From the NCBI GenBank assembly GCA_030737835.1, contig JAUJYN010000026.1, forward strand, positions 1,152,131-1,216,130: a DNA stretch of 64,000 nt, read 5' to 3'. The translations under genes and the position numbers were made by a program. The notes under the pieces were generated by a model, which was given only the letters and a program-made list of their open reading frames with translations, was not told the DNA's origin and made no database searches. Shown one piece after another: positions 3,897 to 63,894 of this stretch. Every line of letters begins with the position of its first letter. Position 1 is the stretch's first letter. The DNA comes from Acorus gramineus. Its lineage: Eukaryota > Streptophyta > Magnoliopsida > Acorales > Acoraceae.

Positions 3897-4389
3897 GCTC
3901 ACCAAATGACAAAAAACCCTAAGTGTGAGTGTGTGAGTGACTAAGTGTGTGTGTGTGAGCCTAAGTGATGTCCACGCCCACCAATAGTTCTTCTTCTTCT
4001 CTCTCACACACTCACACACACAAATCTCTCATTCCCTCTCTTGAATCTCCCTTTTTGATATAGTAGAAGTGGTTGAAAAGAAGAGCCCTAGAAGAAGAAA
4101 AGGAAGGTGAGGTCTTGATCTACCTTTCCATGGTCTTGGATTTGATTTTCCCCCTTGTTGACCTCCTCTCATGGACCCCTTTCTCCTCTGATTTTCAGCC
4201 TTTTCTAGGGCTGAGGGAGATCTTGGTGGTGGTCTTGGTGGTGGCGATTCGGTGCGCAAAGAGCACCCGAATTCCCTCCCTTTCCTTTCCTCCCTTGGGT
4301 GAGTCCTTCTCCTCCCTTTTTCCTGTGTAGATGCATGATTAGGGTGTGTTTTTGGGTGTGCATGGTATGCATGTGTGTTAGGGGTGTGG

Positions 4390-4790
4390 GAGGGCTGAGG
4401 GAGGTGGTGGGAAGGGCTCGGGCGCGCGTGCGGGGTCATCTGCGCGCGTGCGTGCGTACGCGCGGGCGCACGGGCGTGCGCGTGGTGTGCTGCACAGGGA
4501 CACAGTGCGCGGGGTGCTGCGCAAGGGCGCAGTACGTGCGGGTAGGCGCAGGGCTGGACGCGCGGGCGCGCACTAGCGTGCGCGCGCGCGCGACAGCGTG
4601 TCTGGGCACGCGGGCAGAGGCGCAGCAGCGCGTCTGGGCGCGCGGGCTGGGGCGCGGCAATGCACCCGGGGCACGGGGGTGCGTGCGTACGTGCACACCG
4701 GTGTGTACGCGTGCGGGTGGCCGTGCGCATGGCTGCCCGTGGGTGTGGAAGGGGGTCGGGGCACTCAGACTCGCGTGCGTGCGGGCCCGT
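4390..4790 (+). repeat. CpG-dense low-complexity block inside the LTR
   Basis: Alternating GCGCGC/GTGCGT sequence of very high GC content lies inside an otherwise mixed LTR. It sits between a donor-like GTGAGT (4299) and the TTGCAG at 4875-4880. Long open frames in it are rich in Arg, Ala, His and Pro on either strand and come from composition, not from genes. Confidence 0.8.
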
Positions 4791-4880
4791 ATGCATGCTT
4801 GTCCGAGTGTTGGGTATTTCTAGCGTATTTCTTATGTATTTGTGTAATTACTCACCATTTTGATTACCCATGTCTTGCAG

Positions 4881-4916
4881 ATCTTGACGGGCGGTCACGC
4901 GACGACCCGGGTGTTG
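4881..4916 (+). other. Conserved 36-nt segment framed by splice-like sites
   Basis: TTGCAG precedes the segment and GTGAGT follows it. The core (CACGCGACGACCCGGGT) is preserved in most sister LTRs. It may be a small leader exon or a conserved binding site. Confidence 0.5.
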
Positions 4917-5318
4917 GTGAGTGGGACAATCCAACCCAGTAGGGAGGCGTTCGATGCACGTAGGCGTGCATTGCCCTCCCCTGGGGCACCATAGTTGCAT
5001 ATTAGCTAGTATTAAATGTAAACTATGCTTTGCATGAATATTATGTTGTATCCATGCCACCTTAGACCTGCATGCTAGGGATATGCACCCTTATATTGAT
5101 TATTATGATGTATCCATGCCACCTTAGATTTGTATGCTAGGGATATGCACCCTTACATCATGTTAGAGGCCTATGCATGTCTAGACACCTTGCCCCGAAC
5201 TACGCATGTTCCCACCTAGTTTAATTTAATTAAATCAAATGTGAGCATGCCTTAGAGAATATTATAACCTTGTTGTTATAATATATGTCTCCCCGCATCT
5301 TAGTTATGCGCCCTGGAG

Positions 5319-5334
5319 GAATTCTTGTGAATTC
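5319..5334. repeat. GAATTC-N4-GAATTC inverted repeat
   Basis: Both 6-base arms are perfect and the spacer is TTGT. It lies about 60 bases before the insertion point of the next LTR, and twelve LTR copies in the window carry it. Confidence 0.8.
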
Positions 5335-7048
5335 ATGACATTATTTAGCGTTACCATCGGTGTCGACGGATCCATGAGGATCGTATCCGTGTGTGTCACG
5401 CCCCAGGGCGGCCAACCCAGGGACGCGGCAAGTGTATGTATCATATCAGAAGCCTACACAGGAGGTCAATAATATATATCATACACAGACAACTAGAATG
5501 ACACACATGCAACAAAAGGGACTGACATGATATATACACCAAATGCGGAAGCAAAAGACTGAATCTGTGAATAAACATTCTACAGACTCGATACACAATC
5601 ATACGTCCTGTGAGAGCCAATATACACAATATACAACTGAACATATACCAACACGTGCCAAGCACGGAAATAAAATACATACAGCCAAGGAAAGGGATGC
5701 TGATAGCCTCTGGTACTCGCGGACGTAGCGCTGCTCCGCTACTGAAGAAATCCCTCGGAAAGCTCCAACTGCTGCTCCGGCTCCAGCTCAGGCTCAGTGG
5801 CAACTGGGGAAAAACATATGCGAGGGGTGAGCCGCACGCTCAGTGAACAGCACAACCCATGCATCACAGACAATATTTACCAATATTCCATTATTTTATC
5901 CAGCCATCAATACATAACAACACAAACCAGTGGTTCGTACTTCGCCGAACCACCACACCCTCACCCTCACCCATCCATGGGTGACATAGGATTTTGGGAC
6001 TGATAATCATCTATTCACAAATCCAGTAGGTCGCTCATCGCCAACCCACTACACCCTCACCCTCACCCTCAACGGGTGACATAGGATTTTGGGACTGACT
6101 AGGCTGTTGGTCACCCTTGGTCCACCGATAGTCTCTCCCTCCACTCCGTAGGCCGCCTGGTCTACTCCCACATTCAGCACAGTCCGAAACCAAATCAGGA
6201 GGTGCCTACTAATGGGAGCCCTCTGTCAGGAAGGCCCTGTCTAACGCTGGGGGTAGCCTCTACCGAATCCAACGCAGGGAACAGAACAGCCTATCCATAC
6301 GCATATGATCCACTCGGATCCGCCAACTACATATCATTACAACTCAAATGTCATGAATTCCTCTGAATTCAACCAGGTGCATCATCAAGATGCGGGAACA
6401 TGTACAAAAATCAGTAAGGCTGGAATATCATTGGGGGAAAGAAACTCGGAAGGGCGGCGTGAGTTCCCGTTACAGGATACCCCGACAACCAAACAAGGAA
6501 CACGGAGTACCCTAACCCGGGTCTCACCGCTGTCCTTGCAAGGCCCCTCCCCTATAATATCTACCAACTATACTAATAATTATACCCATCATACAATCAT
6601 TACATATAATATTATTGGGACTAGAACCTTGGGAGGGCAGCCCGAGGTCCCGATACAGGACATCCCGACAACCAAACAAGGAACACGGAGTACCCTAACA
6701 CGGGTCTCAGCGTTGACCTCGCAAGGCTCCTCCCTATAATATTATCCTAAGGCATGCGATCTAACAGATACCAGCATTTAATTTAATAATTAAACTAGTA
6801 GGACGCATGCATAGGCCGGGGTTTCCTAGCATGAAAACCAGGGGACATGCTGCATGGCTCATACACATATCCTATGGGTGCAAGTCCCTAACATAAAAGC
6901 CTAGGGTAGCATGCATTCTACATTTTCATCATGCTCACATGCAATACATATTATTATAGGTTAATATAATCCACGGTGCCCCAGGAGAGGTCGGTATACG
7001 CCCAAGTGCGTATAACACCTCTCTACTGGATTGGATTGTCCCACTCAC

Positions 7049-7083
7049 AGTATCTGGGTCGTCGCGCGACCGTCCGTCTAGAT
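7049..7083 (-). other. Conserved 35-nt segment with splice-like borders
   Basis: On the minus strand it is preceded by TTGCAG and followed by GTGAG. This is the only 35-nt copy; most are 36 nt. Confidence 0.45.
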
Positions 7084-7179
7084 CTGCAAGACAGACATTA
7101 TTTGGTAAGTATTAATCCACAAATATTATTAAATACTCAATTAAATACCCCAAAGCCCACAACAACCACCTAACACTCG

Positions 7180-7800
7180 GGCAAACGTGCACGCGACCCG
7201 CACGCACGTTAGCCCGAGCACTCCGGTAACTACCCGCGCGGCCGGCAACCACCCGCACGGCCACCCGACCGCCCGGGTGCACCGCCGAGCCTCCGCCCGC
7301 GCACCCCGCGCGCCTCGCGCCGCCCGCGAGCACCCTGCGCGCCCCCGCGCGCAGCGCCTCGCCTCGCCTCGCGCGCACCCTGCGCGCACCTCCGCCACCT
7401 CGCCGCACCTCGCGCGCACCTCGCACGCACCTCCGCCACCTTGCCGCACCTCGCGCGCACCTCGCGCGCACCTCGCGCGCACCTCCGCCACCTTGCCGCA
7501 CCTCGCGCGCACCTCGCACGCGCCTCGCCTGCCCCGCTGCGCCTCGCGCACACCTCGCACGCACCTCCGGGCGCACGCCCGCGCGCGCACGCACGCGCGC
7601 ACGCCCAGCCGGCCCCCTGCGCTCGCTGCCAGCACTGCCAGCACGTCCCGCGCGCCCAGCACGACCAGCACCTCGCGCCAGACCCGCGCACGCCCGCGCG
7701 CACGCCGCGCGCACGCACGCCCGCGCGCGCACGCGCGCCCGCACGCGCCCAGCCCGCGCGCTGCCTGGGCCGCTGCCGCCGCTGCCTGCTGCCCGGGACT
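7180..7800 (-). repeat. CpG-dense low-complexity block
   Basis: This is one of the two longest blocks of its kind here. Part of it is a degenerate tandem array of GCGCACCTC-like units (about 7370-7570), which suggests growth by slippage. Confidence 0.8.
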
Positions 7801-9354
7801 GCCCAGCCACTGCTCGAGCGCCACCACCGCCCCTCCCACGACCTCCGACCACCTCCGACCACCTCCAACCACCCTCCGACGACCCCCACTGCCGCTGACC
7901 ACCCCCAAACACAAACCCCCCCCCCCTAGCAATCATCTAAGCAAGAAAAAAAAAAGGAAAGAAGCTTACCGAGGGGGAGGAAGGGGTGACCGGGTGCTCT
8001 CCGCGCGCCGAAACCTTTCCCAAAGGCCTTCTCACGCCCCGATCTATCACGGCCCTCGATTTGGCTCGAAACAGAGGAGAGAGAGGGGAGGTCGGGGAGG
8101 CTAGGATCGTCAGAATCGGGTTTTGAAGGCACCGGGGTGTAGATCGGGACCCGATCTACACTTCCCGTGCTTTGGGTTTTCGATTTCGAGGGGTCTAGGG
8201 GGCTTGAAAGGAAGAAAAACGGAGAGGGGAGAGAGAGAGATCTCGACGAGGAAGACAATGAATAGTGTTTAGATATTTTTGATTCCTTTTAAGTAGAGCA
8301 CGACTTAAAAACCCGGATACGCCCTGGAACTGCGAAATTTTTGCAAACGATGCCGGAATTCGATGAAATTTTCGTGAGAGGTCTAAAATGGCACCAGGAC
8401 ACCAAATATGCAGTCAGATTTCCAATCGGAGTCCTCTAGCTCAGACGATAGCTAACAGTCCAAAAATAAGCGGTTCCGATCGAAAACCCTAAAAATTTTA
8501 AAAACTGCCAGGACGCTCCAACGGTTACCAGCAGGTTAAAAGTGACACAAATATAACATGTGAGTAGGCTGTCTTCTCCTTATTAGTTGGATCCGATGTA
8601 GGTACTCCCCGACGATGGCTGACCTGACAGAGGGCTTCCGTCTGGTACCTCCGATGTGTTCGGACAGTACTGGTAGTTGGAGTGGACTAGGTCGAGGCTA
8701 CGAGGGTGGGAAAGGGCTACCGGGTGGACCAGGGGTGGAGAGCGGTCTAGTATGCCCCAAGAGACCCATGTCACCCCTCGGAAAGGGTGAGGGTGAGGGG
8801 AGGGAAAGTGGGTTGGCGATGAGACGACCCACTAGAATGTGTAGTTGCTCCCGTGTTAAGGGCTATAATTAATTGAGGTTAATATGAATTGTGATGCATG
8901 GGTTGTGCTATTCACTGAGCGTGTGGCTCACCCCTCGCATATATTTTCTCCAGTGCTATCTGAGTCAGATCTGGAGGAGGAGCTCCCCGAGGCACATCAG
9001 CAGTAGCGGAGCAGCGTCACGTTCTGCGAGTGAGAGACCATCAGCATCCCCTTTTGATTGTATGTATTGTATTCTGTGCTTGGGCACATGTTTGTGTTAT
9101 ATTTAGATGTCGTTGTATATATATTGGCTCTCACAGGACAGTTGATTATGTATCGAGTCTGTAATATGCCTTTTGAATTACAGACTCAGTCTTTTAGCTT
9201 CCGCTATTTGTATATATCATGTCAGCCACTTTTCTGTCTGTGTTGTCATTTTCGATGTTGTATAGAGTATTTTATTGATCTCTATATAGACAGCTGATAT
9301 CATATATACCATTGCCGCGTCTCGGAGACGGCCGCCCAGGGGCGTGACAGATGG

Positions 9355-14686: not shown

Positions 14687-17600
14687 TGTCACGCCCCAGG
14701 CGTCCCCGAGACGTGGCAAAATAATAAAATATCATATCAGCTATCAATACCTGAGGTCAATAAAGACTCCAACAACAATACACAAGGCGGCAAAGTAAGA
14801 TAATGATAACTGACTGAAAAGCGGAAGCATAATATATAAACAATGTCTGTAAACCAAAAACATTATTACAGACCCGAATACACAATCAATGTCCTGTGAA
14901 AGCCAAGTCTAGACCAAAGAAAATACAAAGCATAAAATGACTCTAGGAATGCTGACAGCCACACACTCACCACCCGCCGGCAGAACGCACCACGCCCATA
15001 AGACAACGCCACAAGAAAGCTCCAGCTCCACGCCCAACACTGCCCCTGAAAAGAAACAGTATGCGAGGGGTGAGCTATAAGCTCAGTGAGTGGCTGGAAA
15101 CCAATCACCATACTACAGTTCAATACATAATCAATTCCCTTTTTCAAGGAAAAACATGGGTAGAAACCCAATGGATAACAGGGTCACACGGCGGCGCGAC
15201 CAACCTCACCCCCACCCTCACTCCCGGAGGGAGTCTTTTGGGACTTATGGGGAGAGACCATACCGTCGATCGAAGAGACCTGGATTTACTGGTCTAGGGA
15301 CCATACCGTCGGTCGAAGAGACCCGGATTTACTGGTCTACTCAACACTACTGGATCATCTACATCTAGATAATCATCCATCGATGTCCTTCAACATCCAT
15401 CACGAGACCGGACCCAACATCTATGGGAACGGTCAAACAACGAATGGGTCACGAGGCGACGCGTCTTCGCCTCATCCACACCCTCACTCCTGAAAGGAGA
15501 CATCTTGGGACTTTGGGAAGAGACTTAGACTGCTCTACACCCCTGGTCCACCGGTAGCCTCTCCCCGCTCCGTAGCTTACCTGGTATACTCCCACGATCA
15601 GCACTGTCCGAACACATCGGAGGTACCTACAGATGGGAGCCCTCTGTCAGGACAGCCTGTCTAACGCCGGGGCTGTACTACACGGATCCAACGAAGGGGA
15701 GAACGATTCCACGCTCGCGATATCATTCGTTAGCCCTCTTCCGGGTAGCCTCTACCTGGTATACTCCCACGATCAGTACCCCTCCGACTGCATCGGTGGT
15801 ACCTACGGATGGGAGCCCTCTGTCAGGATAGCTACAACCCGGCCTCTTCAACTCGACAACCCTGGGAGTGAACATTCCATGTTCGCAAGGCGAACCCCAT
15901 GGAAACAACTACCACTATGGAGGAGAAGAATATGCGAGGGGGGTTGGGCCACACACTCAGTGAATGGCACCAACTATGCATCACAATTCATATCAACCTT
16001 ATATAATGTATAGCCCCTAACACGGGAGCGACCACACAAGCTAGTGGGTCGTTACATCGCCGACCCACCACACCCTCACCCTCACCCTCAAAGGGGTGAC
16101 ATGGGCCTTTTGGGACTGACTAGACTGTTATTCACCCTTGGTCCACCGGTAGCCTCTCCCTGCTCCGTAGCTTACCTGGTATACTCCCACGATCAGCACT
16201 GTCCGAACACATCGGAGGTACCTACAGATGGGAGCCCTCTGTCAGGACAGCCTGTCTAACGCCGGGGCTGTACTACACGGATCCAACGAAGGGAAGAGAA
16301 CAGCCTACCCACACGCATGCGATCCTCTTGGATCCGTCAACAACGCTTTCTAACATTTCTAATGACGTGAATTCTCAAGAATTCCTCCAGGGCACATAAC
16401 CAAGATGCGGGGAGACATATATTATAACAACAAGGTTATAATATTCTCTAAGGCATGCTTACAACAATATGCTCACATAATCCCATCTTGATTTAAATAA
16501 ATTAAACTAAATGGGAACATGCATAGGTTCAGGGCTTTCCTAGCATGAAACATGGTGACTAAACATGCATAGGCCGCTATACATGATATAAGGGTGCATA
16601 TCCCTAGCATACAAAGTCTAAGGTGGCATGGATACATCATATTAATCATGCATAGATCAAGGCTTTTAAGTACAGGACATGGTGTCCAGGCATGTACGGG
16701 CTTCTATACACGATACATGGATGTATATCCCTAGCATGCAAAATATCTACATATTTTAGCTAGGGGGCCCCATCGATGCGCGACGCGCGTCTATGCGGGT
16801 CGAGCGCATCCCTAGAGAGGGGGGGGGGGAGATTGGAACCGAACCACTCACCTTACGACCCGGGACCTCGCGCATCCCATCCGACGAGATCTGCAAGGTA
16901 GGGGCATCCAACTGGTGAGAAACAACACAATTTACACATAGAAAACATTAAAAATACCCCATACTCGGACAAGCATGCATACGGGCTCGCACGCATGCGA
17001 GCACGCACGTACGCACGCGAGTCTGAGTGCCCCGACACCTACCTGAACCCTCGGGCAGCCACACGCATGGCCCCCCGCACGCGCACGCACGAATGCGCAT
17101 GCACGCACGCACCCCAGCACCATCGGTGCACTACCGCGCGCCTGCCCGCGCGCCAAGACGCGCTGCCGCGCCCACGCGCACCCTCGCGCGCGCCCGCGCG
17201 CACCACGCGTCCAGCCCGCACCCATCGCGCAGCACCCCACGCACGCCCCAGCACGCGCACTCACGCACGCGCGCGCATTGGTCCCCAGCCCAGCGCCCAG
17301 GCGCATGCCCAGGCGCCTGGTCCGCGCGCGCGCACGCTCGTGCGCACGCCCGCGCGCACCCCCGATCGCGCCAGCGCCTGTGTGCACCCGCGCAACCACT
17401 CCGCGCGCACCCGCGCACTCGCGCGCGTCTGCGCGCCCGACTGCGCCTGCCAGCGCCCGCCTGCGCGCGCACGCGCGCAGACTGCGCCCAGCGCGCGCCC
17501 AGCCCATCCCAACCTCATTTTAACCCTTCCCAACCCCTCACACACACCCTAACCCATCTACCTAGCATGCATGACCTCCCTAACATCCCCTTAAGCCATG

Positions 17601-18437
17601 AAAACCAAGAAAAGAAGGGGAGGAGCTCACCTTGGAGGGGGAACGAAAGGGGGAGGTTCGGGGGCCCTCGACGCACCCGCGACCACCTCAACCGCCACCA
17701 CCACTACCACCACCTCCTCAGCCTCTCCTCAGCCTCCTCTTCAGCTGAAAATCAGGGGAGGGGAGAACAAGATATGAGAGCATGAGAGTGGAGGATCAAC
17801 AACACCAAACAAAACCTAGCCAAAGCTTCTTCACCTTCTCCTTCACTTCTCTTTGAGACCTTTAATCAAACACCCAGGGGGCTTGGATGAGAGAAAGGGA
17901 GGGCATGAATAATAGGCGTGGAAGTGAGAGGGAGAGAGAGAGAGAGAAGATATTTATCACAAATATCTAAGGAGGGAAAAGACCTAGACGCCCTTTGACT
18001 AGAAATTCTGCGCAAGCTTCACTGGAACAGCCATAACTTCCTCGATATAGCTCCGAATTGCACAATTCCAATTCCGTTGGAAAGCCAAGAGGATTATCTA
18101 CAACTTTCATGTTCATGCCAAGATCAAATAATCCTTCTAGCTATTCCGAAATTAGAGCTAAACATAGAACAGGGCTGCTGCCAGAATTTCCATCCCCGGG
18201 GTATACTTGGAAAAATACCCATAACTTTTACTACAAGAATCCAGTTGACCTAATTCCATTTCTGTACGAAAGCTAACTCAAAACTGGACATCTCATAATA
18301 AAATCACATTTAAACCTCTTCATCTTGGATTTTAACAAAATCAAATCCAAATACCAAATTGAAAATATATAACTTAGGAAAAAAATTATGTACCCAAAAT
18401 TTTCAAACAGAGCGCTCCAAATGACACAGGCACAACA
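14687..18437 (-). mobile_element. 3' LTR of the collapsed element
   Basis: About 3.75 kb, the longest uninterrupted LTR here. On the minus strand it runs from TGTTGTGCCTGTGTCATTTG (18437) to GGGGCGTGACA (14687). It contains the palindrome at 16369-16384, a 39-nt version of the conserved segment at 16852-16890, a CpG-dense block at about 16985-17505, and two 43-bp repeat units near 15271-15340. A segment around 15490-15830 is similar to 16090-16270, which suggests a partial internal duplication. Confidence 0.8.
16852..16890 (-). other. Conserved 39-nt segment with splice-like borders
   Basis: On the minus strand TTGCAG precedes and GTGAG follows. The 39-nt form is shared with 38541-38579 and ends GTCGTAAG. 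Confidence 0.45.
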
Positions 18438-24830: not shown

Positions 24831-25335
24831 GATCCCCTATTTTCCCCACCCATTTTAATTCAGCCATGAAGAAGAGAAGCAAAGGAGATGGTGGTGATGG
24901 TGGTGAAGTGGTGGTGGTGTGTGTGTGGTGTCATTGTGAGCCCCAACACCTTCCCTTCTCCTCCCCCTCTCTTGGTAATCTTCTTCCCCCTCTTTTATGC
25001 TTACTAGGATGTTGTAGAGGGCATGCATGTGGGTGCTGTTGGGGGAATCGCTCGATTATGTGTTATGCCTGTGTCATTTGGAGCCATTTCGGTTAAGCCT
25101 TGGTCACTTCTGGGTCATTCAGGGCCTTTTTAATTTTTCGATCGGAGCCGCTAAAATTTTGGCTTTTAGCCACCTGCGGGAGTTAGAGTACTCTGATTGA
25201 AAATCTGGCTGCATATTATGGGTCCTGGTACCATTTGGTATTGCCCACAGAAATTTCATCGAGTTCTAGTTACGTTTTAGAAAATTTTGCAGTTCCGAAT
25301 CGTATCCGGGTTTTGATCGATTTTGAAGTGTCAAA

Positions 25336-25442
25336 GGGTGACTTTGACCAAGTCAAGTGGACTTGGACCAAGTCAAAGAAGACCATTGACTAGGTCAATG
25401 GGTTTTGTTTTCTAGTTTGGTTGGGTTGACTCAAAGTCAATC
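25336..25442 (+). promoter_or_regulatory. W-box cluster in U3
   Basis: At least seven TTGAC cores on both strands are present, including TTTGACC and GGTTGACTC. The copy in the 3' LTR at about 36600-36705 keeps most of them. Confidence 0.55.
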
Positions 25443-26364
25443 CCCACCCACTCCATTTTTCTCAAATAAATGCCAAGTGTGTGAGTGTGTGTGTGTGAGT
25501 GTGCTTGAGGTGGGCGTCCACTTCATTTCCCTCTCCCTCTCACTCTCTCCTTCACTCCCTGGTTTTCTTTGTTTTCTTGGGTTAAATAAAAGAAGAACAT
25601 GAAGGAGAAGAAGAAACATTAAAAGGAAAAGAGAAAGGTATGTGTGTGCAAGCTTTGGGTGTTGTAGTTGTTGTTGTTGTTTCTCTTCTCATTAGCTCCT
25701 TCTCATGCCTTCCCCCCCCCCCCTGTTTTCAGCCAAGGAAGGCTGGTGGAGTGGCTGATGAGGTGGTGGTAGTGGTGGTGGTGGTAGAGGTGGTCGTGGG
25801 TGTGTCGAGAACCCCGCATCTCCCCATTTCCCTTCCCCTGTTTTGGTAAGGCAGCACACTGTCTTTTAAAGATATCAGTGAATCTAGTATTTAGAGGCAT
25901 ATTGTTAGGATTATGTCTTCTTATGATTTGATCAGCTATGTGTCTAGATGTTATATATGAAATTTGGGGTCATTATGATATCTGTGGTGTAAGTTAGAAC
26001 CAGTTTTGCATGACCTGTCCAGATTCGAGTAGGAATTGACCAGCTTCGGGAAATGATTTGTTTCGGGCTTGTAGAGGCAAAATTAGGTTCTAATGTCTGC
26101 ATGGATTATGATCCCAGCATATCATAGAATGTGCATGATTTATTTCATAATTTTTGGAAATGTATTGGGTGCTGTGAAGACCAATTAGTAGGGCTGGTTG
26201 CAGCAGGTTTAGCAGTTTTGCTTGGTTGAGTGTCAAGGAGTTGGTTGCATGTGTCTTGGGTGATAATATGGAAGTATCAGGGGTTAGGGTTTTCATGAAG
26301 TAAGCTTATATGTGTGATAGGAGGTTCCATAATTTAATTATGGATCATTGGTTGTGTTTTGCAA

Positions 26365-26400
26365 ATCTCGTAGACCGGACGCGCGGCGATCCGGGTATCG
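26365..26400 (+). other. Conserved 36-nt segment with splice-like borders
   Basis: GTGAGT follows directly. The upstream dinucleotide is AA (TTTTGCAA) where all other copies have AG. Confidence 0.4.
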
Positions 26401-33578: not shown

Positions 33579-33583
33579 AAAGT

Positions 33584-40450: not shown

Positions 40451-41984
40451 CTGCAAGACAGGTATTTAACACGGTGAGTAAAACACACAAATATATACAA
40501 AGAAATACACTAAAATACCCAACACTCGGACAAACGTACATATGGCCCGTACGTACGCGAGTCCGAGCAACCCGACACACTCTTGAACCCCCGGGCAGCC
40601 ATACGCACGGCCACCCACACGCGCACGCACGAATGCGCACGCACGCACGCACCCCGGCACCATCGGCGCACTGCCGCGCGCCTGCCCGCTCGCCCAGACG
40701 CGCAGCCGCACGCACGCGCACGTTCGCGCGCGCCCTCGCACACCGCGCGTCCAGCCTGCACCCCTCGCGCAGCACCCTGTGCACGCCCTAGAACGCGCAC
40801 GCACGCACGCGCACTGGTCCCCTGCCCCGCGCCCAGGCGCATGCCCAGGCGCCCTGCCCAGCACCCAGGCGCAGTGCCCAGGCGCATGACCAGGCGCTCT
40901 GCCCGCGCGCGCGCATGCTCACGCGCACGCCGCGCGCACCCGCGCGCACCCCCGCTCACGCCTGCACCCGCGCACACCCGCGCACCCGCGCGCATGCACC
41001 CGCGCCCGACTGCTCCCGCTTGCGCCCGCCTCCGCGCGTGCGAGCGCAGACCGCGCCCAGCGCGCGCCCAGCCCATTCTAACCTCTTTTTCACCCATCCC
41101 AACCCCTCACACACACCCAAACCCAACTACCTAGCAAGCATGACCTTCCCACAACCCCTTAAGCCAAGAAAACCAAGAAAAGAAGGGGAGGAGCTCACCT
41201 TGGAGGGGAAACAAAAGGGGGAGGTTCGGGGGCCCTCGACGCACCCGCGACCACCTCAACCACCACCACCACCACCTCGGCCTCCTCAGCCTCCTCTCAG
41301 CCAAAAATCAGGGGGGGGGGAGATCCATGCAAAGAGAGAGCTTGAGAGAGAGGGGAACACCCAACATCAACACAAGAACACAAGATTTACCACCACCTCC
41401 TCCACCACCTCATCCTTCTCATTGGGGCATTCCACCCCAAAGAGAGCAAAAAGTGCTGGTCGGAAGATTTGGGAGGGGAGAGAGAGAGAGAGAGAGAGAT
41501 TTATCAAAATATCTTAAGGGGGGATTACTAAGTCGCCCTTCGACTAGAAATTCTGCGCAAGCTTCACTGGAACAGCCATAACTTCCCCGATACAGCTCCG
41601 AATTGCTTGATTCCAAGACCGATGGAAAGCTAAGAAGATTATCTACAACTTTCATGTTCATGGCAAGATCAGATAATCTCTCCAGATAATCCGAAATTAT
41701 AGATAAACATGGAACAGGGCTGCTGCCAGAATTTCCATCCCCGGGGTATACTTGGAAAAATACCTATAACTTTTACTACAAGAATCCAGTTGATCTAATT
41801 CCACTTCTGCGCGAAAGCTAACTCAAAACTGGACATCTCATAATAAAATCACAATTAAACCTCTTCATCTTGGATTTTAACAAAATCAAATCCAAATACC
41901 AAATCAGGAATACATAACTTAGAGAAAAAAAAATTATGTACCCAAATCTTCAAACAGAGCGCTCCAAATGACACAGACACAACA

Positions 41985-43649: not shown

Positions 43650-44610
43650 ACGAATGTCACGCCCCAGGGCGGCCGTCCCCGGGACGCGGCAAGTGTATAT
43701 AAAATATCAGAATCTACACAGGAGGTCAATAATATATCATACACAAACAACCAGAATGGCACACAGACAACAAAGAGGCTGACATGATATATACACCAAA
43801 TGCGGAAGCAAAAGACTGAATCTGTAAATAAACATACTACAGACTCGATACTCAATCATCTGTCCTGTGAGAGCCAATATACACCAATACGACTGAATAT
43901 ACACAGACGCGTGCCAAGCACGAAAATAAAATACATACAGTCAAGAAGGGATGTTGATAACCTCTGGTACTCGCGGAACGTGGCGCTGCTCCGCTACTGA
44001 AGGAATCCCTCGGAAAGCTCCAACTGCTGCTCCGGCTCCAGCTCAGGCTCAGTGGCAACTGGGGAAAACATATGCGAGGGGTGAGCCACACGCTCAGTGA
44101 ACAGCACAACCCATGCATCACAGACAATATTGACCACAATGCAATTATTTATCCAACCTCTAAGTGGCATAACAACATAATCCAGTGGTTCGTACATCGC
44201 CGAACCACCACACCCTCACCCTCACCCATCAATGGGTGACATAGGCTATTGGGACTGATAATCATCCAATCACAAATCCAGCGGGTTGCTCATCGCCAAC
44301 CCACTACACCCTCACCCTCACCCTACCACGGGTGACATAGGATTTTGGGACTGACTAGGCTGTTGGTCACCCTTGGTCCACCGATAGTCTCTCCTCCACT
44401 CCGTAGGCCGCTGGCCTTCACCCATAACTTCAGCACAGTCCGTCACAAATATCGGGAGGCGCCTACTGATGGGAGCCCTCGAAAGGGACGACCTTATCAC
44501 GCTAGGGCAGTCTCTACACGGATCCAACGAAGGGAAACAGAACAGCCTATCCATACGCATATGATCCACTCGGATCCGCCGACAACACATCTCTACAACT
44601 CAAATGTCAT

Positions 44611-44626
44611 GAACTCTTCAGAGTTC
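44611..44626. repeat. Palindrome variant GAACTC-TTCA-GAGTTC
   Basis: Other copies have GAATTC on both sides. Here one base changed in each arm, at paired positions, so the inverted repeat is kept. Confidence 0.8.
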
Positions 44627-45304
44627 CTCCAGGGCGCATAACCAAGATGCGGGGAAACATGTATAATAAAAGCAAGGTTGTAATATCATTGGGGGAAAGA
44701 ACTCGGGAGGGCGGCGTGAGTTCCCGATATAGGATACCCCGACAACCAAACAAGGAACACGAAGTACCCTAACCCGGGTCTCACCGCTGTCCTCGCAAGG
44801 CCCCTCCCCTATAATATTCACTAAATATGCTAATAATCATACCAATTATATAACATTACTTATAATATTAATGGGACTAGAAACCTTGGGAGGGCAGCAT
44901 GAGGTCCCGATACAGAACATCCCGACAACCAAACAAGGAACACGGAGTACCCTAACACGGGTCTCAATGTTGACCTCGCAAGGCTCCTCCCTATAATATT
45001 ATCTAAGGCATGCGAATTAACATACACCAGCATTTAATTTAATAAGTAAACTAGTAGGACGCATGCATAGGCCGAGGTTTCCTAACATGAAAACAGGGGG
45101 CATGGTGCATGGCTCTTACACCTATCCTATGGGTGCAAGTCCCTAACATATAAAGACTAGGGTAGAATGTATTCTACATTTAAATCATGCAAGCATGGAT
45201 TACATATTACTGCTGGTTAATATACATCCATGGTGCCCAGGAGAGGTCGGTATACGCCCAAATGCGTATGACCCCTCTCTACTGGGTTGGATTGTCCCAC
45301 TCAC

Positions 45305-45340
45305 CGAAGTTCGGGTCGTCGCGCGACCGCCCGTCAGGAT
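45305..45340 (-). other. Conserved 36-nt segment with splice-like borders
   Basis: On the minus strand TTGCAG precedes and GTGAGT follows. The CpG block (about 45450-46125) lies on the acceptor side. Confidence 0.5.
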
Positions 45341-46616
45341 CTGCAAGACAGACATTTATATGGTGAGTTAAAATCCACAACTACTACCAAAGACATCAAA
45401 ATTCACAAAACCCACAAACAAACAACCAACACTCGGGCAAACGTGCATACGACCCGCACGCACGCTAGCCTGAGCACCCCGGCAACCACCCGCATGGCCG
45501 GCAACCACCCGCACGGTCACCCGACCGCCCGGGTGCACCGCCGCGCCTCAGCCAACGCACCCCGCGCCCCGCCGGGCCCCCTGCCCGCCGCCTGAACACG
45601 CCGCCGCACCACCCGGGCCACCGCGCGTCCACTGCGCCCAGCCGCAGCAGCCCGCGCGCGCCCCGAACGCCTCGCGCCGGCCCGCGAGCACCCCGCACGC
45701 CCCCGGGCGTAGCGCCTCACCCCGCGCGCACCTCCGCCACCTGACCGCGCCCCGCGCGCACCACAGCCGCCTCGCCGCGCCCCGCGCGCACAACCACTAC
45801 CTCGGCGCGCCCCCAGCACCCGCACGCCCAGCATCGCCAACCCGTCCAGCGCGCCCAGCACGCACTCTGCGCGCATCGCCGCTCGCATCCCTCCCCACAC
45901 CAGCCGCTCGACCAGCCCCTGCACGCACAGCTCGCCACCAGCTCCTCGCGCACAGCTGCTCGACCAGCACCAAGCGCACAGCACCGAGCACACCCAGCAC
46001 GACCAGCACGCACTCGCACAGTACCAAGCACACCCAGCACGACCGCCCGCGCGCACGCACACGCGCACGTCCGCGCGCGCCCAGCCTGCGCGCTGCCTGA
46101 GCTGCTGCCGCTGCTGCCTGCTGCCCGGAACAGACCCCCACTGCCCGAGTACCTCCTCCACCACCCAATGGCCTCCGACGGCCTCCGACCGCCCCCAACC
46201 ACCTCCGACGACCTCCCACAGCCGCCGACCACCTCCCAAACACAAATACCCCCTCCTATTAAGCATCTAAGCATGAAAAAGAGGGAAAGAAAGCTTACCA
46301 AGGGGGAGGAAGAGGTGACCGGGTGCTCTCCGCGCACCAAAACCTTTCTCAAAGGCCCTCCTACGCCCCGATCTATCTCGGCCCTCGAAACGGCCCAAAA
46401 CAGAGGAGAAAGGAGGGAGGACGGGGAGGCTAGGATCGCCGGAATCGGGATTTGAAGGCACCGGGGTGTAGATCGGGACCCGATCTACACTTCTTAGGTT
46501 TTGGGTTTTTGGTTTTGAGGGGTCTAAGGCCTTCAAAAGGGAGAAAAATGAGAGAGAGGAGAGAGGGAAAGGTTGGTAGGGATGATGAATAGTGATTTCG
46601 AAATTTAGATCCCACA

Positions 46617-46624
46617 TATATATA
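46617..46624 (-). promoter_or_regulatory. TATATATA box in the U3 of the innermost solo LTR
   Basis: It lies about 265 bases from the LTR start on the minus strand. This fits a retroelement core promoter. Confidence 0.4.
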
Positions 46625-46891
46625 GTGAGCGACTTAAAAACCCAGATACGCCCCGGAACTGTGAAATTTCAGAAACGTTGCCGAAATTCGATGAAATTTT
46701 CGTGAGAGGCCTAAAATGGCACCAGGACACCAAATATGCAGTTAGATTTCAAATCAGAGTCCTCTAACTCAGGACGATAGCTAACAGTCCAAAAATTAGC
46801 GGTTCCGATCGAAAATCGAAAAAATTGAAAAACTGCCAGAACGCTCCAACGGTTACCAGCAGGTTAAAAGTGACACAAATATAACAACGAA

Positions 46892-48705: not shown

Positions 48706-49220
48706 ACTTTTGTCACGCCCCGGGCGTCCCCGGGACGCGGCAAGTGTATATATGATATCAGCAGTCTAAACAGGAGGTCAATAACATACCCTAAACAACA
48801 TCAATATGAACACAGACAACAATGAAGCTGACAGGATATATACACAAATAGCGGAAGCTAAAAGACTGAGTCTGTAATTCAAAAACATATTACAGACTCG
48901 ATACATAATCAACTGTCCTGTGAGAGCCAATATATATACAACGACATCCAAATATAATACAACCGCGTGCCCAAGCACGGAATATAATACATACAATAAA
49001 AAGGGATGCTGATAGCCTCTGATACTCACGGGACGTGGCGCTACTCCGCTACTGATGAAGTCCCTCGGGGAGCTCCTCCTTCAGATCCGACTCAGACAAC
49101 ACTGGAGAATAATATATGCGAGGGGTGAGCCACACGCTCAGTGAATAGCACAACCCATGCATCACAATTTATATTAACCACAATTTTATTATTCACGCCT
49201 CAAAGTGGCAGGAACTGCAC

Positions 49221-49685
49221 AAATCCAGTGGGTCGCTACATCGCCGACCCACCACACCCTCACCCTCACCCCTCAATAGGTGACATAGGATATTGGGACT
49301 TACTAAGCTGTTAATCATCCTTGGTCCACAACTACACAAACCAGTGGGTCGCTACATCGCCGACCCACCACACCCTCACCCCTCAATAGGTGACATAGGA
49401 TATTGGGACTTACAAACCAGTGGGTCGCTACATCGCCGACCCACCACACCCTCACCCTCACCCTCAATAGGTGACATAGGATATTGGGACTGATAATCAT
49501 CAATACACAAATCCAGTGGGTCGCTACATCGCCGACCCACCACACCCTCACCCTCACCCCTCAATAGGTGACATAGGATATTGGGACTGATAATCATCAC
49601 TACACAAATCCAGTGGGTCGCTACATCGCCGACCCACCACACCCTCACCCTCACCCCTCAATAGGTGACATAAGATATTGGGACT
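49221..49685 (-). repeat. Tandem repeat in the LTR, five units
   Basis: These are the same units as at 39191-39675, with slightly different spacing. The equal unit number shows the array existed before insertion. Confidence 0.88.
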
Positions 49686-50425
49686 GACTAGGCTGTTGGT
49701 CACCCTTGGTCCACCGATAGTCTCTCCTCCACTCCGTAGGCCACTTGGCCACTCCCACATTCAGCACAGTCCGTCCCAAATCAGGAGGTGCCTACTGATG
49801 GGAGCCCTCTCACGGGACGGCCTTTCCAACGCTGGGGCAGTCTCTACACGGATCCAACGAAGGGAACAGAACAGCCTATCCATACGCATATGATCCACTC
49901 GGATCCGCCGACAACACATCTCAACAACTCTAATGTCATGAATTCTTCAGAATTCCTCCAGGGCGCATAACCAAGATGCGGGGAACATATATTAATATTA
50001 TCGGGAAAAGAAACCTTGGGAGGGCACCATGAGGTCCCGATATAGGACATCCCGACAACCAAACAAGGAACACGGAGTACCCTAGCCCGGGTCTCAATGT
50101 TGACCTCGCAAGGCCCTTAATATTCCCTAAGGCATGCTAAAAATATCATAAGTTCACATTTAATTTAATAAATCAAACTAATAGGATGCATGCATAGGTC
50201 GAGGCTTTCCTAGCATGATAACAAGGTGTCAGGATGCATAGCTCTTACACATATCCTGAGGGTGCAAGTCCCTAACATACAAGGTCTAGGGTGGCATGCA
50301 TAATACATATTAATCATGCTTGCACATATTTACAAGTCAATATAAAACTATGGTGCCCCAGGGGAGGACGGTATACGCCCAAGTGCATATCACGCCTCCC
50401 TACTGGGTTGGATTGTCCCACTCAC

Positions 50426-50461
50426 CAATACCCGGGTCGTCGCGTGACCGTCCGTCAAGAT
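50426..50461 (-). other. Conserved 36-nt segment with splice-like borders
   Basis: On the minus strand TTGCAG precedes and GTGAGT follows. Confidence 0.5.
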
Positions 50462-53224
50462 CTGCAAGACAGGTATTTAACACGGTGAGTAAAACACACA
50501 AATACACACAAAAATACTCTAAAATACCCCACACTCGGACAAACGTACATACGGCCCGTACGTACGCGAGTCCGAGCACCCCGACACACTCTTGAACCCC
50601 CGGGCAGCCATACGCACGGCCACCCGCACGCGCACGCACGAATGCGCAGGCACGCACGCACGCACCCCGGCACCATCGGCGCACTACCGCGCGCCTCCCC
50701 GCCCGCCCAGACGCGCAGCCGCACGCACGCGCACGTTCGCGCGCGCCCGCGCGCACCGCGCGTCCAGCCCGCGCCCCACGCGCAGCACCCCGCGCACGCG
50801 CATGCACGCACGCGCACGCGCGCGCACACTGGTCCCCAGCTCCGCGCCCAAGCGCATGCCAGGGCACCCTGCCCCGCACCCAGGCGCCCAGCCCGCGCGC
50901 GCACACGCTCGCGCGCACGCCCATTCGCACCCCCGCTCGCGCCTGCACCCGCACGCACCCTCGCACCCGCGCGACTGCGCCCCTGCCAGCGCCCGCTTGC
51001 GCGCGCACCTGCGCGCGCAAGCGCGCAGACCGCGCCCAGCGCGCGCCCAAGCCATTCTAACCCCTTTTTCACCCATCCCAACTCCTCACATACACCCAAA
51101 CCCAACTACCTAGCAAGCATGACTTTCCCACAACCCCCTTTAAGCCAAAAAACCAAGAAAAGAAGGGGAGGAGCTCACTTTGGAGGGGGAACAAAAGGGG
51201 GAGGTTCGGGGGCCCTCGACGCACCCAACCGCCACCACCACCACCACCACCACCTCTTCGGCCTCCTCAGCCTCCTCTTCAGCCGAAAATCAGGGGGGGG
51301 GGAGATCCATGCAAAGAGAGAGCTTGAGAGAGAGGGGAACACCGAACATCAACACAAGAACACAAGATTTACCACCACCTCCTCCACCACCTCATCCTTC
51401 TCATTGGGGGCATTCCATCAAACACATGGGGGGTGTGTTTGCAAGTGAGAAAGAGAGCAAAAAGTGCTGGTCGGAAGATTTGGGAGGGGAGAGAGAGAGA
51501 GAGAGATATTTATCAAAATATCTTAAGGGGGAATTACTAAGTCGCCCTTCGACTAGAAATTCTGCGCAAGCTTCACTGGAACAGCCATAACTTCCTCGAT
51601 ACAGCTCCGAATTGCTTGATTCCAAGACCGATGGAAAGCTAAGAAGATTATCTACAACTTTCATGTTCATGGCAAGATCAGATAATCTCTCCAGCTAATC
51701 CGAAATTAGAGCTAAACATGGAACAGGGCTGCTGCCAGAATTTCCATCCCCGGGGTATACTTGGAAAAATACCCATAACTTTTACTACAAGAATCCAGTT
51801 GGTCTAATTCCACTTCTGTACGAAAGCTAACTCAAAACTGGACATCTCATAATAAAATCACAATTAAACCTCTTCATCTTGGATTTTAACAAAATCAAAT
51901 CCAAATACCAAATCAGGAATACATAACTTAGAGAAAAAAAAAATTATGTACCCAAATCTTCAAACAGAGCGCTCCAAATGACACAGACACAACAAGTCAC
52001 GCCCCAAGGTGGCCGTCCCTGAGACGCGGCAATGGTATATAATATCAGCAGTCTATACAGGAGATCAATAACATACTCTAACAACATCAAAATGACAACA
52101 CAGACAATAAGGTGGCTGACATAATATACATACAAATAGCGGAAGCTCAAACGACTGAGTCTGTAATTCAAAAGACATATTACAGACCCGATACATAATC
52201 AACTGTCCTGTGAGAGCCAATATATATACAACGACATCCAAATATAATACAAACGTGTGCCCAAGCACAGGATACAATACATACAATCAAAAGGGGATGC
52301 TGATGACCTCTCACTCGTAGAACGTGACGCTGCTCCACTACTGCTGATGTGCCTCAGGGAGCTCCTCCTTCAGATCCGACTCAGATATCACTGGAGAAAA
52401 ATATATGCGAGGGGTGAGCCACACGCTCAGTGAATAGCACAACCCATGCATCACAATTCATATCAACCTTATACAATTCATAGTCCTTAACACGGGAGCA
52501 GCAACAACATTCTAATGGGTCGTTTCATCGCCAACCCACCACACCCTCACCCTCACCCTCAAGGGGTGACATGGGTCTTTTGGGATTGACTAGGCTGTTA
52601 ATCACCCTTGGTCCACCGATAGCCTCTCCTCCACTCCGTAGCTCGCCTGGTCTACTCCCACGATCAGCACAGTCCGACGCATCGGAGGTACCTACAGATG
52701 GGAGCCCTCTGTCAGGAGAGCCTGTCTAACGCTGGGGAGTCCCTCCACGGATCCAACGAAGGGAAGAGAAACAGCCTACCCACACGGATATGATCCTCTT
52801 GGATCCGTCGACATCGCTTCCTAACATTCTAATGTCATGAATTCATAAGAATTCCTCCACGGCGCATAACTAAGATGCGGGGAACCATATATTATAACCA
52901 CAAGGTTATAATATTCTCTAAGGCATGCTAATAACCATATGCTCGCATTGATTTAAATAAATTAAACTAAATGGGAAACATGCGTAGGTCGAGGCTTTCC
53001 TAGCATGAAAACATGGTATCAGGATGCGTAGGCCTCTATACATAATATAAGGGTGCATATCCCTAGCATACAAAGTCTAAGGCGGCATGGATACAACATA
53101 ATGATCATGCATAGCACAGTTACATTTATTACAACTTAATACGCAATTATGGTGCCCCAGGGGAGGGCAATGCACGCCTACGTGCATCGAACGCCTCCCT
53201 ACTGAGTTGGATTGTCCCACTCAC

Positions 53225-53260
53225 CAAAACCCGGGTCGTCGCGTGACCGCCCGTCAATAT
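53225..53260 (-). other. Conserved 36-nt segment with splice-like borders
   Basis: On the minus strand TTGCAG precedes and GTGAGT follows. It lies in the solo LTR at 38673-54635. Confidence 0.5.
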
Positions 53261-56681: not shown

Positions 56682-56688
56682 ATAAAGA

Positions 56689-58023: not shown

Positions 58024-58059
58024 CAATACCCGGGTCGTCGCGTGACCGCCTGTCAAGAT
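58024..58059 (-). other. Conserved 36-nt segment with splice-like borders
   Basis: On the minus strand TTGCAG precedes and GTGAGT follows. Confidence 0.5.
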
Positions 58060-60574: not shown

Positions 60575-61037
60575 AAGCGTGTTGTGCCTGTGTCATTTGG
60601 AGCGCTCTGTTTGAAAATTTGGGTACATAAATTTTTTGCTATAAGTTATGTATTCCTGATTTTGGTATTTGGATTTGATTTTGTTAAAATCCAAGATGAA
60701 GAGGTTTAAATATGAGTTTACTATGAGATGTCCAGTTTTGAGTTAGCTTTCGTACAGAAGTGGAATTAGATCAACTGGATTCTTGTAGTAAAAGTTATGG
60801 GTATTTTTCCAAGTATAACCCGGGGATGGAAATTTTGGCAGCAGCCCTGTTCTATGTTTAGCTCTAATTTCGGGCATGCAAATAAACATGAAAGTTGTAG
60901 ATAATCTTCTTAGCTTTCCAACGGTTTTGGAATTGTGCAATTCGGAGCTGTATCGAGGAAGTTATGGCTGTTCCAGTGAAGCTTGCGCAGAATTTCTAGT
61001 CAAAGGGCGACTTAGTCATTCCCCCTTAGATATTTGT

Positions 61038-61070
61038 GATAAATATCTCCTCTCTCTCTCTTCCCCTCTC
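61038..61070 (+). promoter_or_regulatory. TATA-like box with pyrimidine patch
   Basis: GATAAATATC is followed by a run of TC repeats. The same pair occurs in the sister LTRs near 2700, 17945, 19255, 37540, 41495 and 51500. Confidence 0.5.
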
Positions 61071-63131
61071 ACCCCCACGTCGACTGCATTTCTTGTCTCT
61101 CTTTCTCTCTTGCAAAGCCCCCCCATGTGTTTGATTAAAGTCCTCAAAGAGAAGAGATGGTGGAGGAGGAGGTGCAAGTGAATCTTGGTGTAGGTTTTGT
61201 GTTGTTGTGTTTGTTCTCCCCTCTCTCAAGCTCCCTTGCATGGATCTTCCCCCCCTGATTTTCAGCTGAAGAGGAGGCTGAGGAGAGGCTGAGGAGGTGG
61301 TGGTAGTGGTGGTGGCGGTTGAGGTGGTCGCGCGTGCGTCGAGGGCCTCTGAGCCTCCCCCTTTCATTCCCCTCCAAAGGTGAGCCTTTCCTCTCCTTTT
61401 TCTTGATTTTTATGGTTTGGGGGATGTTGGGGAGGTCATGCATGCTAGGTAGAGGTGTTAGGGTGTGTGTGAGGGGTTGGGAAGGGTTAAAATGAGAATA
61501 GGACGGGCTGGGCGCGCGCTGGGCGCAGTCTGCGCGCGTGCGCGAGCAGGCGCGCGCGCAGGCGGGTGCTAGCAAGCGCAGTCGGGCACGCAGACGCGCG
61601 CGGGCGCGTGCGCGCGGGTGAACGGGTGTGCGCGGGAGTGCGCTCGGGTGTTGGCGCGAGAGGGGGTGCGCGCGGGGCCCCCTAAATAATACGTAGATAT
61701 TTGCATGCTAGGGATATACATCCATGTATCGTGTATAGAGGCCCGTACATGCCTGGACACCATGTCCTGTACTTCAAGCCTTGATCTATGCATGATCAAT
61801 ATGATGTATCCATGCCACCTTAGACATTGTAAGCAAGGGATATGCACCCTTATAACATGAATAGCAGCCTATGCATGCTTAGACACCAAGCCTCGAGCTA
61901 TGCATGTTCCCATCTAGTTTAATCTAATTAAATCAGAATGTGAGCATGCCTTAGAGAATATTGTAACCTTGTGGTTATGGTATATGTCTCCCCGCATCTT
62001 AGGGGATTATGTGAGCATATAGTTGCAAGCATGCCTTCGAGAATATTATAACCTTGTTGTTATAATATATGTCTCCCCGCATCTTGGTTATGCGCCCTGG
62101 AGGAATTCTTGAGAATTCATGTCATTAGAAATGTTTGGAAGCGTTGTCGACGGATCCAAGAGGATCGCATGCGTGTGGGTAGGCTGTTCCCTTCCCTTCG
62201 TTGGATCCGTGTAGTACATCCCCGGCGTTAGACAGGCTATCCTGACAAAGGGCTCCCATCAGTAGGCACCTCCTGATGTGTTTCGGACTGTGCTGAATCA
62301 TGGGAGTATACCAGGTAAGCTACGGAGCGGGGAGAGGCTACCGGTGGACCAAGGGTGATTAACAGCCTAGTCAGTCCCAAAAGACCATGTCACCCCTTCG
62401 AGGGTGAGGGTGAGGGTGGGGTGGGTCGGCGATGTTACGACCCACTAGCTTGTGTAGTTACTCCCGTTTAGGGACTATGACTACTTTAAGGTTAATATGA
62501 GGGTGTTGGTTGCTGTTATGCATGTGTGTGATATCTCGATGAGCGAGTATCGAGAGTGGTTGTTTTCCATTGGGTTTCGCTTTGCGAACATGGGATCGTT
62601 CTCCCCTTCGTTTGGATCCGATGTAGGGACTCCCCGGCATTGGCTGGCCACGAGGGTGGGAGAGGCTACCGGTGGACCAAGGGTAAGAGCGGTGAGTTGA
62701 GGAGATCGGGTTGTAGATACTACCCCGGAGAGGGCTATTGAATGATGTCGCGAGCGTGGAATCATTCTCCCCTTCGTTGGATCCGAGTAGTGACATCCCC
62801 GGCGTTAGACAGGCTATCCTGACAGAGGGCTCCCATCAGTAGGTACCTCCTGATGTGTTTCGGACTGTGCTGATCGTGGGAGTATACCAGGTAACCTAAG
62901 GAGCGGGGAGAGGCTACCGGTGGACCAGGGGTGTAGAGCAGTCTAAGTCTCTCCCAAAGTCCCAAGTTTCCTCCTTTCAGGAGTGAGGGTGTGGATGAGG
63001 CGAAGACGCGTCACCTCGTGACCCATTCATTGTTCGACCGTTCCCATAGATGTTGGGTCCGGTCTCGTGATGGATGTTGAAGGACATCGATGGGCGATTA
63101 TCTAGATGTAGATGATCCAGTAGTGTTGAGT

Positions 63132-63303
63132 GGACCAGTAAATCCAGGTCTCTTCGACCGACGGCATGGTCCCTGGACCAATAAATCCGGGTCTCTTCGA
63201 CCGACGGCATGGTCCCTGGACCAATAAATCCGGGTCTCTTCGACCGACGGCATGGTCCCTCAACCAGTAAATCCGGGTCTCTTCGACTGACGGTATGGTC
63301 TCC
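63132..63303 (+). repeat. Tandem repeat, four units of about 43 bp
   Basis: Each unit holds AAATCCGGGTCTCTTCGACC and a CGACGGCATGGTC-like tail. Sister LTRs have two units (15271-15340; 56011-56099). Confidence 0.88.
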
Positions 63304-63894
63304 TCCCCATAAGTCCCAAAAGACTCCCTCCGGGAGTGAGGGTGGGGGTGAGGTTGGTCGCGCCGCCGCGTGACCCAGTTATCCTCGGGTTTCTACCCAT
63401 GTTTTTCCTTGGAAAAAGGGAACTTATTATGTGTTGATCTATAGAATGGTGATTGGTTTCCAGCCACTCACTGAGCTTGTAGCTCACCCCTCGCATACTG
63501 TTTCTTTTCAGGGGCAGTGTTAGGCGTGGAGCTGCAGCTTCCTGTGGCGTGGTCTGATGGGCGTGGAGCGTTCTGTCGGCGGGTGGCAAGTGCGAGGCTG
63601 TCAGCATTCCCAGAGTCATTTATGCTTTGTAAATCGTGCATGTGGCACAGGTTGTATTTTCTTTGGTCTAGACTTGGCTTCCACAGGACATTGATTGTGT
63701 ATTCGGGTCTGTAATAATGTTTTTGATTTACAGACATTGTTATATATTATGCTTCCTCTTTTCAGTCAGTTATCTTTATCTTACTTTGTCACCTTGTGTA
63801 TTGTTGTTGGTGTCCTTATTGACCTCAGGTATTGATAACTGATATTACATTTTATTTTGCCACGTCTCGAGGACGCATGGGGTGTGACAAAGCG

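Follow-up and report, generated by a model that had tools for sequence, protein, structure and literature searches.

In human immunodeficiency virus type 2 (HIV-2) and simian immunodeficiency virus (SIV), a functional intron is located in the R-U5 region of the leader and was suggested to affect packaging of the genomic RNA (PMC1766366). Among plant elements, Ogre, a Ty3/gypsy element of the Tat lineage, carries a partially spliced intron (PMC6317226). In the Ty1/copia elements BARE1 and EVADE, spliced and unspliced RNA have separate roles (PMC3735527, PMC12786077), and BARE replication uses the unspliced form (PMC3735527). A 2025 review describes plant long terminal repeat (LTR) retrotransposons as generally devoid of introns, with Ogre and EVADE as exceptions (PMC12786077). 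The LTRs considered here belong to an element of putative Ty3/gypsy type found in 64,000 nt of Acorus gramineus DNA (assembly GCA_030737835.1, contig JAUJYN010000026.1, positions 1,152,131 to 1,216,130, forward strand; this whole stretch is called the window, and positions are counted from its first nucleotide). The sequence signals described below are real and unusual for a plant retrotransposon, and most likely reflect a leader that is spliced inside the LTR.

The intron of HIV-2 and SIV lies inside the R-U5 leader region (PMC1766366). The predicted splice sites of the Acorus copies all fall between a promoter-like stretch and the primer binding site (PBS), and would be comparable in position if transcription starts at that stretch. 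In contrast to that single lentiviral intron, the Acorus LTR displays two or three predicted introns, a mini-exon and a CpG-rich core. With Ogre it would share the affiliation to plant Ty3/gypsy elements, partial splicing being described as a feature of Ogre (PMC6317226). The introns reported for Ogre, BARE and EVADE are, however, internal to the element, those of BARE1 and EVADE lying in the gag-pol region, with no splicing of the LTR described there (PMC6317226, PMC3735527, PMC12786077), whereas here they would be situated within the LTR. LTR introns are not mentioned for Tekay/Del chromoviruses in the accessible part of a plant survey (PMC6317226). In searches of one open-access library, no plant LTR with internal introns was found, PMC9097378 included. 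LTR-internal splicing as predicted here would be a variant of known retroelement splicing.

Putative splice signals in the LTR copies

Judged by their TG..CA ends, PBS, polypurine tract (PPT) and target duplication, the eleven short segments treated here sit in true LTRs, 2.6-3.8 kb long, of an element of probable Ty3/gypsy type, of which a gag-like open reading frame (ORF) and a reverse transcriptase (RT) fragment are also present. A PBS followed three of the 12 LTR ends examined (c4, the copy ending at 33578, and c9) and a mutated one followed c13, while a PPT preceded three of 15 LTR starts (c3, p36 and c7). Copy c9 (minus strand, 51994 to 48711) displays the ends TGTTGTGTCTG...GGGGCGTGACA; 3' of it come AAAGTTGGTATCAGAGCCTGG (after AAAGT), which we take to be an initiator-Met-type primer site, and then the gag-like ORF. 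Copy c7 is preceded by the PPT AAGGGGGGGAGAA and is 93% identical to c9, which is why the two probably flank a single damaged element as its LTRs, c9 being the 5' LTR. LTR copies are inserted within one another, and c8 is nested between c9 and c7, with a 5-bp duplication (TTCGT) and without PBS. The RT/RNase H fragment (47660-47301) matched retroviral RT chains with a best E of 3.1e-11 and Pfam RT_RNaseH_2 below the cut-off; the gag-like ORF had no Pfam match. The long LTR, the PBS type and the gag start appear to resemble those of Tekay/Del chromoviruses.

Four subfamilies were assigned by eye: A (5' parts of c3, c3d, c6, c7, c9 and c12), B (c1, c10, c11), C (c4, c5, p36) and D (c2, c8). In c3 (14687-16500) and c12 (60580-63889) the 5' part is of A type and the 3' end of C type, a combination that points to recombination among the subfamilies.

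The preliminary description had placed in these LTRs eleven segments framed by splice-like words, and all were found again with the same coordinates and lengths: eight of 36 nt (c1, c4, c5, c7-c11), two of 39 nt (c3, c6) and one of 35 nt (c2). They are preceded by TGCAG in ten cases and by TGCAA in c4, and followed by GTGAG. This segment is called mini-exon below; D2 is the donor after exon 2, A2 and D3 flank the mini-exon, A3 is the last acceptor and A1 the acceptor of a short upstream intron. The four plus-strand donors named earlier (4299, 25846, 37868, 61380) were correct, and nine further copies share D2, so that its GT is kept in 13 of 13. GTGAG and GTAAG alternate there (A/G at +3), and although mean identity around D2 is only 0.60 (minimum 0.40), G, T, purine, A and G are all retained. 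A2 is AG in ten of 11 copies, D3 reads GTGAGTGG in all eleven, and A3 is AG in ten of 11, being deleted in c11, with a variable pyrimidine tract ahead of it. The A3 count leaves out c5, c6 and two partial copies near 33135 and 15998, both of which display AG at the aligned position. Altogether, D2, A2, D3 and A3 are intact in 44 of 46 copy-sites across the four diverged subfamilies. GT-AG ends, consensus surroundings and retention among diverged copies are what would be expected of U2-type introns.

The pattern TGCAR-N35..39-GTGAG occurred 13 times in the window (the eleven segments and two unrelated places) whereas 100 dinucleotide shuffles gave 1.28 on average and four at most, an excess which, because the copies are related, excludes only chance similarity. 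The alignment of the mini-exon has its longest invariant runs in GTGAGTGG and TTGCA, and an invariant run of eight columns arose in 0.24% of column shuffles. T content was higher on the intron side than on the exon side at D2 (0.45 vs 0.246; 13 of 13 copies), A2 (0.43 vs 0.189; 11 of 11), A3 (0.35 vs 0.237; 10 of 10) and A1 (0.359 vs 0.20; 14 of 14). U-richness is a mark of plant introns according to the BARE paper (PMC3735527). Candidate branch points, seen in the sequence as CTCAC/CTTAC before A2 (nine of 11 copies) and GCTCACC before A3 (11 of 11), accompany the acceptors. With GTs ranked by predicted U1 pairing, D2 came 1st to 9th (of 83-320) in 12 of 13 copies, and D3 came 2nd to 10th in ten of 11; scores on the antisense strand reached similar values.

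ATG counts were compared with those of 300 dinucleotide shuffles, with CAT counted as well, and the exon set comprised exon 2, the mini-exon and the opening 110 nt of the last exon. Over all copies these held four, four and five ATGs, respectively. Five compares with 13.7 expected at the start of the last exon (one shuffle in 300 as low) and four with 7.5 in exon 2 (15 as low), while the mini-exon was uninformative (4.8 expected). Introns 2 and 3 held 139 ATGs vs 124.3 expected (13 of 300 shuffles as high) and 325 vs 290.2 (none as high). CAT was found seven times in exon 2, never in the mini-exon and 21 times at the start of the last exon; in the remainder of the last exon both ATG (54 vs 82.6 expected) and CAT (38 vs 77.3) were low. 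The ATG:CAT ratio was 13:28 in internal exons vs 464:263 in introns (Fisher 9e-5), all 13 exonic ATGs being confined to c3, c4, c5, c6, c12 and c13. In c1, c2, c7, c8, c9 and c10, a subset picked after the counts were seen, it was 0:12 vs 278:148 (Fisher 4e-6); both tests count related copies as independent. The limits of the LTRs, the conservation of the splice signals, the T-rich ends of the introns at most junctions and the scarcity of ATG in internal exons are seen in the sequence itself; splicing at these sites is inferred.

Spliced LTR copies were sought in the window and none was found: the best matches to the exon 2/mini-exon junction (11 copies) and to the mini-exon/last exon junction (eight copies) differed at 11-14 of 36 positions, a range of 9-14 was obtained with a single random join for each copy, and this absence rests on eleven copies, a small number. 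Copy c12, which lacks the mini-exon, was considered as a spliced-out copy and rejected, its deletion ends being unlike splice sites. Two exact mini-exon patterns gave no match (viral contigs were searched with one and contigs of prokaryote genomes with the other, no plant collection being included), nor did Rfam at gathering thresholds.

Predicted leader and the hairpin of its third intron

The reading considered best, and held to be rather probable, is a leader spliced inside the LTR, the unspliced RNA being retained as the genomic form. In its layout the LTR would then match the 5' region of plant genes. An AT-rich box with a CT-rich/pyrimidine tract, which we take to be promoter-like, is found at about LTR position 300-480, upstream of exon 1; RNA would start there, and its leader, still within the LTR, would be cut by two, in some copies three, spliceosomal introns. 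In order, there would be a short first intron, an intron with a CpG-rich core, the mini-exon (35-39 nt) and a long intron that holds the hairpin and tandem repeats, and the last exon would extend to the LTR end and the PBS. Several TTGAC/GTCAA words, presumably W-box-like, were seen in U3 of B and C copies, as in CTTTGACCAAGTCAAGTTTGACCCTTGACTTGGTCAA (starting near 3812 in c1 and near 25350 in c4, and present in c10, c11 and p36 too).

The short intron is probable in some copies only and would bring the leader to up to four exons. It measures 71-95 nt, and donor candidates, chosen by eye, were noted in eight copies (c1, c3, c4, c5, c6, c10, c11, p36), the one listed for c3 being one base off. 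Ten of 14 copies have AG at the A1 position, whereas c5, c7, c8 and c9 have TG or GG; candidate donor and AG occur together in seven. Exon 2 as delimited is 95-114 nt long (13 copies), intron 2 is 519-958 nt (11 copies) and intron 3 is 834-1806 nt (eight copies). As described earlier, a CpG block occupies the intron before the mini-exon (GC 0.643, CpG observed/expected 1.27) and LTR-wide tandem arrays the intron after it. CpG observed/expected is 1.73 in the mini-exon and only 0.10 in exon 1 plus the short intron, so that CpG loss differs strongly between adjacent parts of one LTR. The last acceptor, claimed to lie about 350 bases before the LTR end, was measured at 359-410 nt from it (ten copies), which is the length of the last exon. 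An extra donor in that exon (GTGAGTATC in c9) was dropped, most copies having GCGAG there. Several A and B copies display a TATATATA stretch in it, which could be a second promoter. In the final 250 nt of the LTR, GTCTGTAAT...ATTACAGAC form an inverted repeat that is conserved (minus strand, 48870-48897, and the matching positions of other copies), possibly a terminator or poly(A) hairpin.

Splicing would remove the CpG-core intron and the hairpin/repeat intron and yield a short leader. The spliced RNA would serve as messenger, perhaps with intron-enhanced expression, and part of the RNA would stay unspliced as template for reverse transcription. In retroelement replication, strong-stop DNA is made on the U5 and R sequences at the 5' end of the RNA; a spliced leader, if copied, would thus give LTRs without introns, which is why the unspliced form is taken as template. 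The predicted introns suggest that RNA of this family exists in spliced and unspliced forms. Introns inside an LTR would have to survive each round of reverse transcription and would imply a means to exclude spliced RNA from replication. If the reading is true, solo LTRs would be ready promoters with a 5' untranslated region intron for adjacent genes.

Several observations weigh against this spliced-leader reading. Column-run tests were not significant at D2 (P 0.91 for the longest run and 0.08 for the best five columns), at A3 (P 0.21) or at A1 (P 0.90), and the longest invariant block at A3, GCTCACC, is located upstream of the AG. D3 is without T contrast (0.198 vs 0.189; six of 11 copies). 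In U1 pairing, the weak D2 of c9 (AAA / GTGAGC at its border) ranked only 68th and D3 of c2 45th, and the repeats of intron 3 hold donor-like GGGTGAGG sites that often score higher. The core of intron 2 is GC-rich, unlike typical plant introns. The AG of the short intron is lost in four of 14 copies, including c7 and c9, the sole pair framing the gag-like ORF. ATG is not depleted in exon 1 plus the short intron (29 vs 26.8 expected), with five ATGs in c7, and seven ATGs occur in the unspliced exon 1 region of c9. In c9, nine more separate gag from the last acceptor, so that translation of gag would depend on leaky scanning, on reinitiation or on a different start site; removal of the introns is thus not enough to open a simple path to gag. 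The three-exon spliced leader proposed in the preliminary description therefore stood in part: the spliced leader is the best-supported reading (copy-sites, T-rich sides at three of the four junctions D2 to A3, ATG scarce but CAT not), whereas the count of three exons misses the probable short first intron and access to gag is complicated by the ATGs of c9.

From 18 nt inside intron 3, stems can form (CCCAG..GGGAGG//CCTCCC.CTGGG or GATGCGC//GCGCATC). Windows of the same intron folded equally well in 0/72 (c1), 8/109 (c2), 27/165 (c3), 3/90 (c4), 4/79 (c5), 0/119 (c7), 3/109 (c8), 2/117 (c9), 0/68 (c10) and 0/106 (c11) cases, c6 having no such windows to compare; GC-rich LTR parts matched the hairpin more often (6/272 to 45/154 windows). 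Shuffle z-scores ranged from +0.40 to -3.22 (eight of 11 copies). RNAalifold on the plain alignment gave only 14 pairs, one with a double change. A second run, using the fold taken from c1, paired 78.2% of cells vs a shuffled mean of 75.0 and gave a covariation of 0.235 vs a shuffled mean of 0.186 (reached by none of 500 shuffles) and 0.082-0.152 when slid. Its four double-change pairs were reached by 89 of 500 shuffles and its 13 further pair types by 444, and the hairpin register shifts between subfamilies. Covariation support for the hairpin may be called moderate.

The position of the hairpin beyond a splice donor would recall retroviral packaging signals by analogy. A tentative and rather doubtful extension is that splicing serves the LTR as a means of sorting its own RNA, with the hairpin and tandem arrays of intron 3 as packaging or dimerisation signal. 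Only unspliced RNA would then be copied into new elements, while spliced RNA would be exported and translated. This would be a plant counterpart of retroviral packaging signals beyond the splice donor, situated wholly inside the LTR, and the CpG-rich core of intron 2 would be a removable regulatory block.

Alternative explanations

The sites might instead belong to a separate spliced non-coding unit or to the captured 5' end of a host gene, with an RNA ending at a poly(A) site of the last exon and not serving gag. This is unlikely. The last exon does hold TTGTATGTATT-type stretches, which we take to resemble plant poly(A) signals, and both the nine ATGs ahead of gag in c9 and the many copies without ATG in internal exons would fit such a unit. 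The sites beside the PBS are, however, kept in all four subfamilies in spite of their wide divergence, which would be expected of sites required by the element's own cycle.

Conservation of the motifs as unspliced protein-binding or structural elements, for example the hairpin, seems improbable too. It would account for the conserved hairpin right after the mini-exon donor and for conservation reaching past the splice sites, e.g. in GTGAGTGGNNCNATCCAA and CTCACCCCTCGCATA, but not readily for five independent site types in correct order and polarity, nor for their splice-like freedom (A/G at donor +3, altered pyrimidine tract at A3) and T-rich intron sides.

That the spliced exons code for a small LTR protein with a conserved stop (e.g. 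DLDGRSRDDPGIVLSESDLKEELPEGLHQ*) is very improbable, and this coding reading was rejected at present. The mini-exon is 36 or 39 nt long in ten of 11 copies, c1, c7, c8, c9 and c10 share a TAG in the last exon up to which the frame stays open from the mini-exon, and c8 shows a 12-nt in-frame difference and a frame also open across exons 1-2. The predicted c8 leader nevertheless lacks a start codon in frame, differences are flat over codon positions (16/18/16 in exons 1-2 of c8 and c2), the exon of c2 has 35 nt, c3 has a stop and c4 is without the final one. Chance, i.e. short splice-like words of one repeat family of common ancestry, multiplied by copying, is hardly credible, given signals that persist between copies as low as 40% identical around D2, where most other columns have changed.

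Feature coordinates and neighbouring sequences

Table 1. Coordinates of LTR copies and predicted leader features in the window
Feature	Coordinates	Strand	Remarks
c1 LTR, subfamily B, 5' part	3522..5393	+	resumes 8559-9349 beyond nested LTR c2
c1 probable short first intron, 92 nt	4107..4198	+	GAAG / GTGAGG ... TTTTCAG / CC at its borders
c1 predicted exon 2	4199..4298	+	
c1 predicted intron 2, CpG-rich core	4299..4880	+	donor at 4299
c1 mini-exon, 36 nt	4881..4916	+	
c1 candidate hairpin in intron 3	4935..4985	+	18 nt past donor
c1 predicted last exon to LTR end	8954..9349	+	
c2 LTR, subfamily D	5394..8558	-	donor 7969; last exon start 5803
c2 mini-exon, 35 nt	7049..7083	-	
c3 LTR, A-type 5' part + C-type 3' end	14687..18437	-	donor 17630; last exon start 15045
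c3 mini-exon, 39 nt	16852..16890	-	
c4 LTR, subfamily C, then PBS	25060..27838	+	donor 25846; last exon start 27457
c4 mini-exon, 36 nt	26365..26400	+	acceptor mutated to TGCAA
c5 mini-exon, 36 nt	30266..30301	-	exon 2 donor at 30820
c6 mini-exon, 39 nt	38541..38579	+	exon 2 donor at 37868
c7 LTR, subfamily A, PPT before it	38679..41984	-	donor 41198; last exon start 39071
c7 mini-exon, 36 nt	40415..40450	-	
c8 LTR, subfamily D	43655..46886	-	donor 46298; last exon start 44058
c8 mini-exon, 36 nt	45305..45340	-	
c9 LTR, subfamily A	48711..51994	-	PBS + gag-like ORF follow
c9 predicted exon 2, limits set by homology	51179..51282	-	short-intron acceptor lost (GG)
c9 predicted intron 2, CpG-rich core	50462..51178	-	
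c9 mini-exon, 36 nt	50426..50461	-	
c9 predicted intron 3	49102..50425	-	hairpin 50357-50407; tandem array 49412-49687
c9 predicted last exon to LTR end	48711..49101	-	PBS follows after AAAGT
c10 mini-exon, 36 nt	53225..53260	-	LTR 54635-51996; donor 53860; last exon start 52390
c11 mini-exon, 36 nt	58024..58059	-	LTR 59536-56808; donor 58745; last acceptor deleted
c12 LTR	60580..63889	+	donor 61380; last exon start 63512; mini-exon region deleted near 61675

The 5' part of an LTR is present twice, at 17267-18437 and 18596-19741, with 92.7% identity and a short stretch between; this doubling may be a local duplication or result from two insertions. An ORF piece reading KDLWLKLGDNNTKFFH... (19863-20240, plus strand) displayed no Pfam family above the cut-off and presumably resembles a plant long interspersed nuclear element (LINE).

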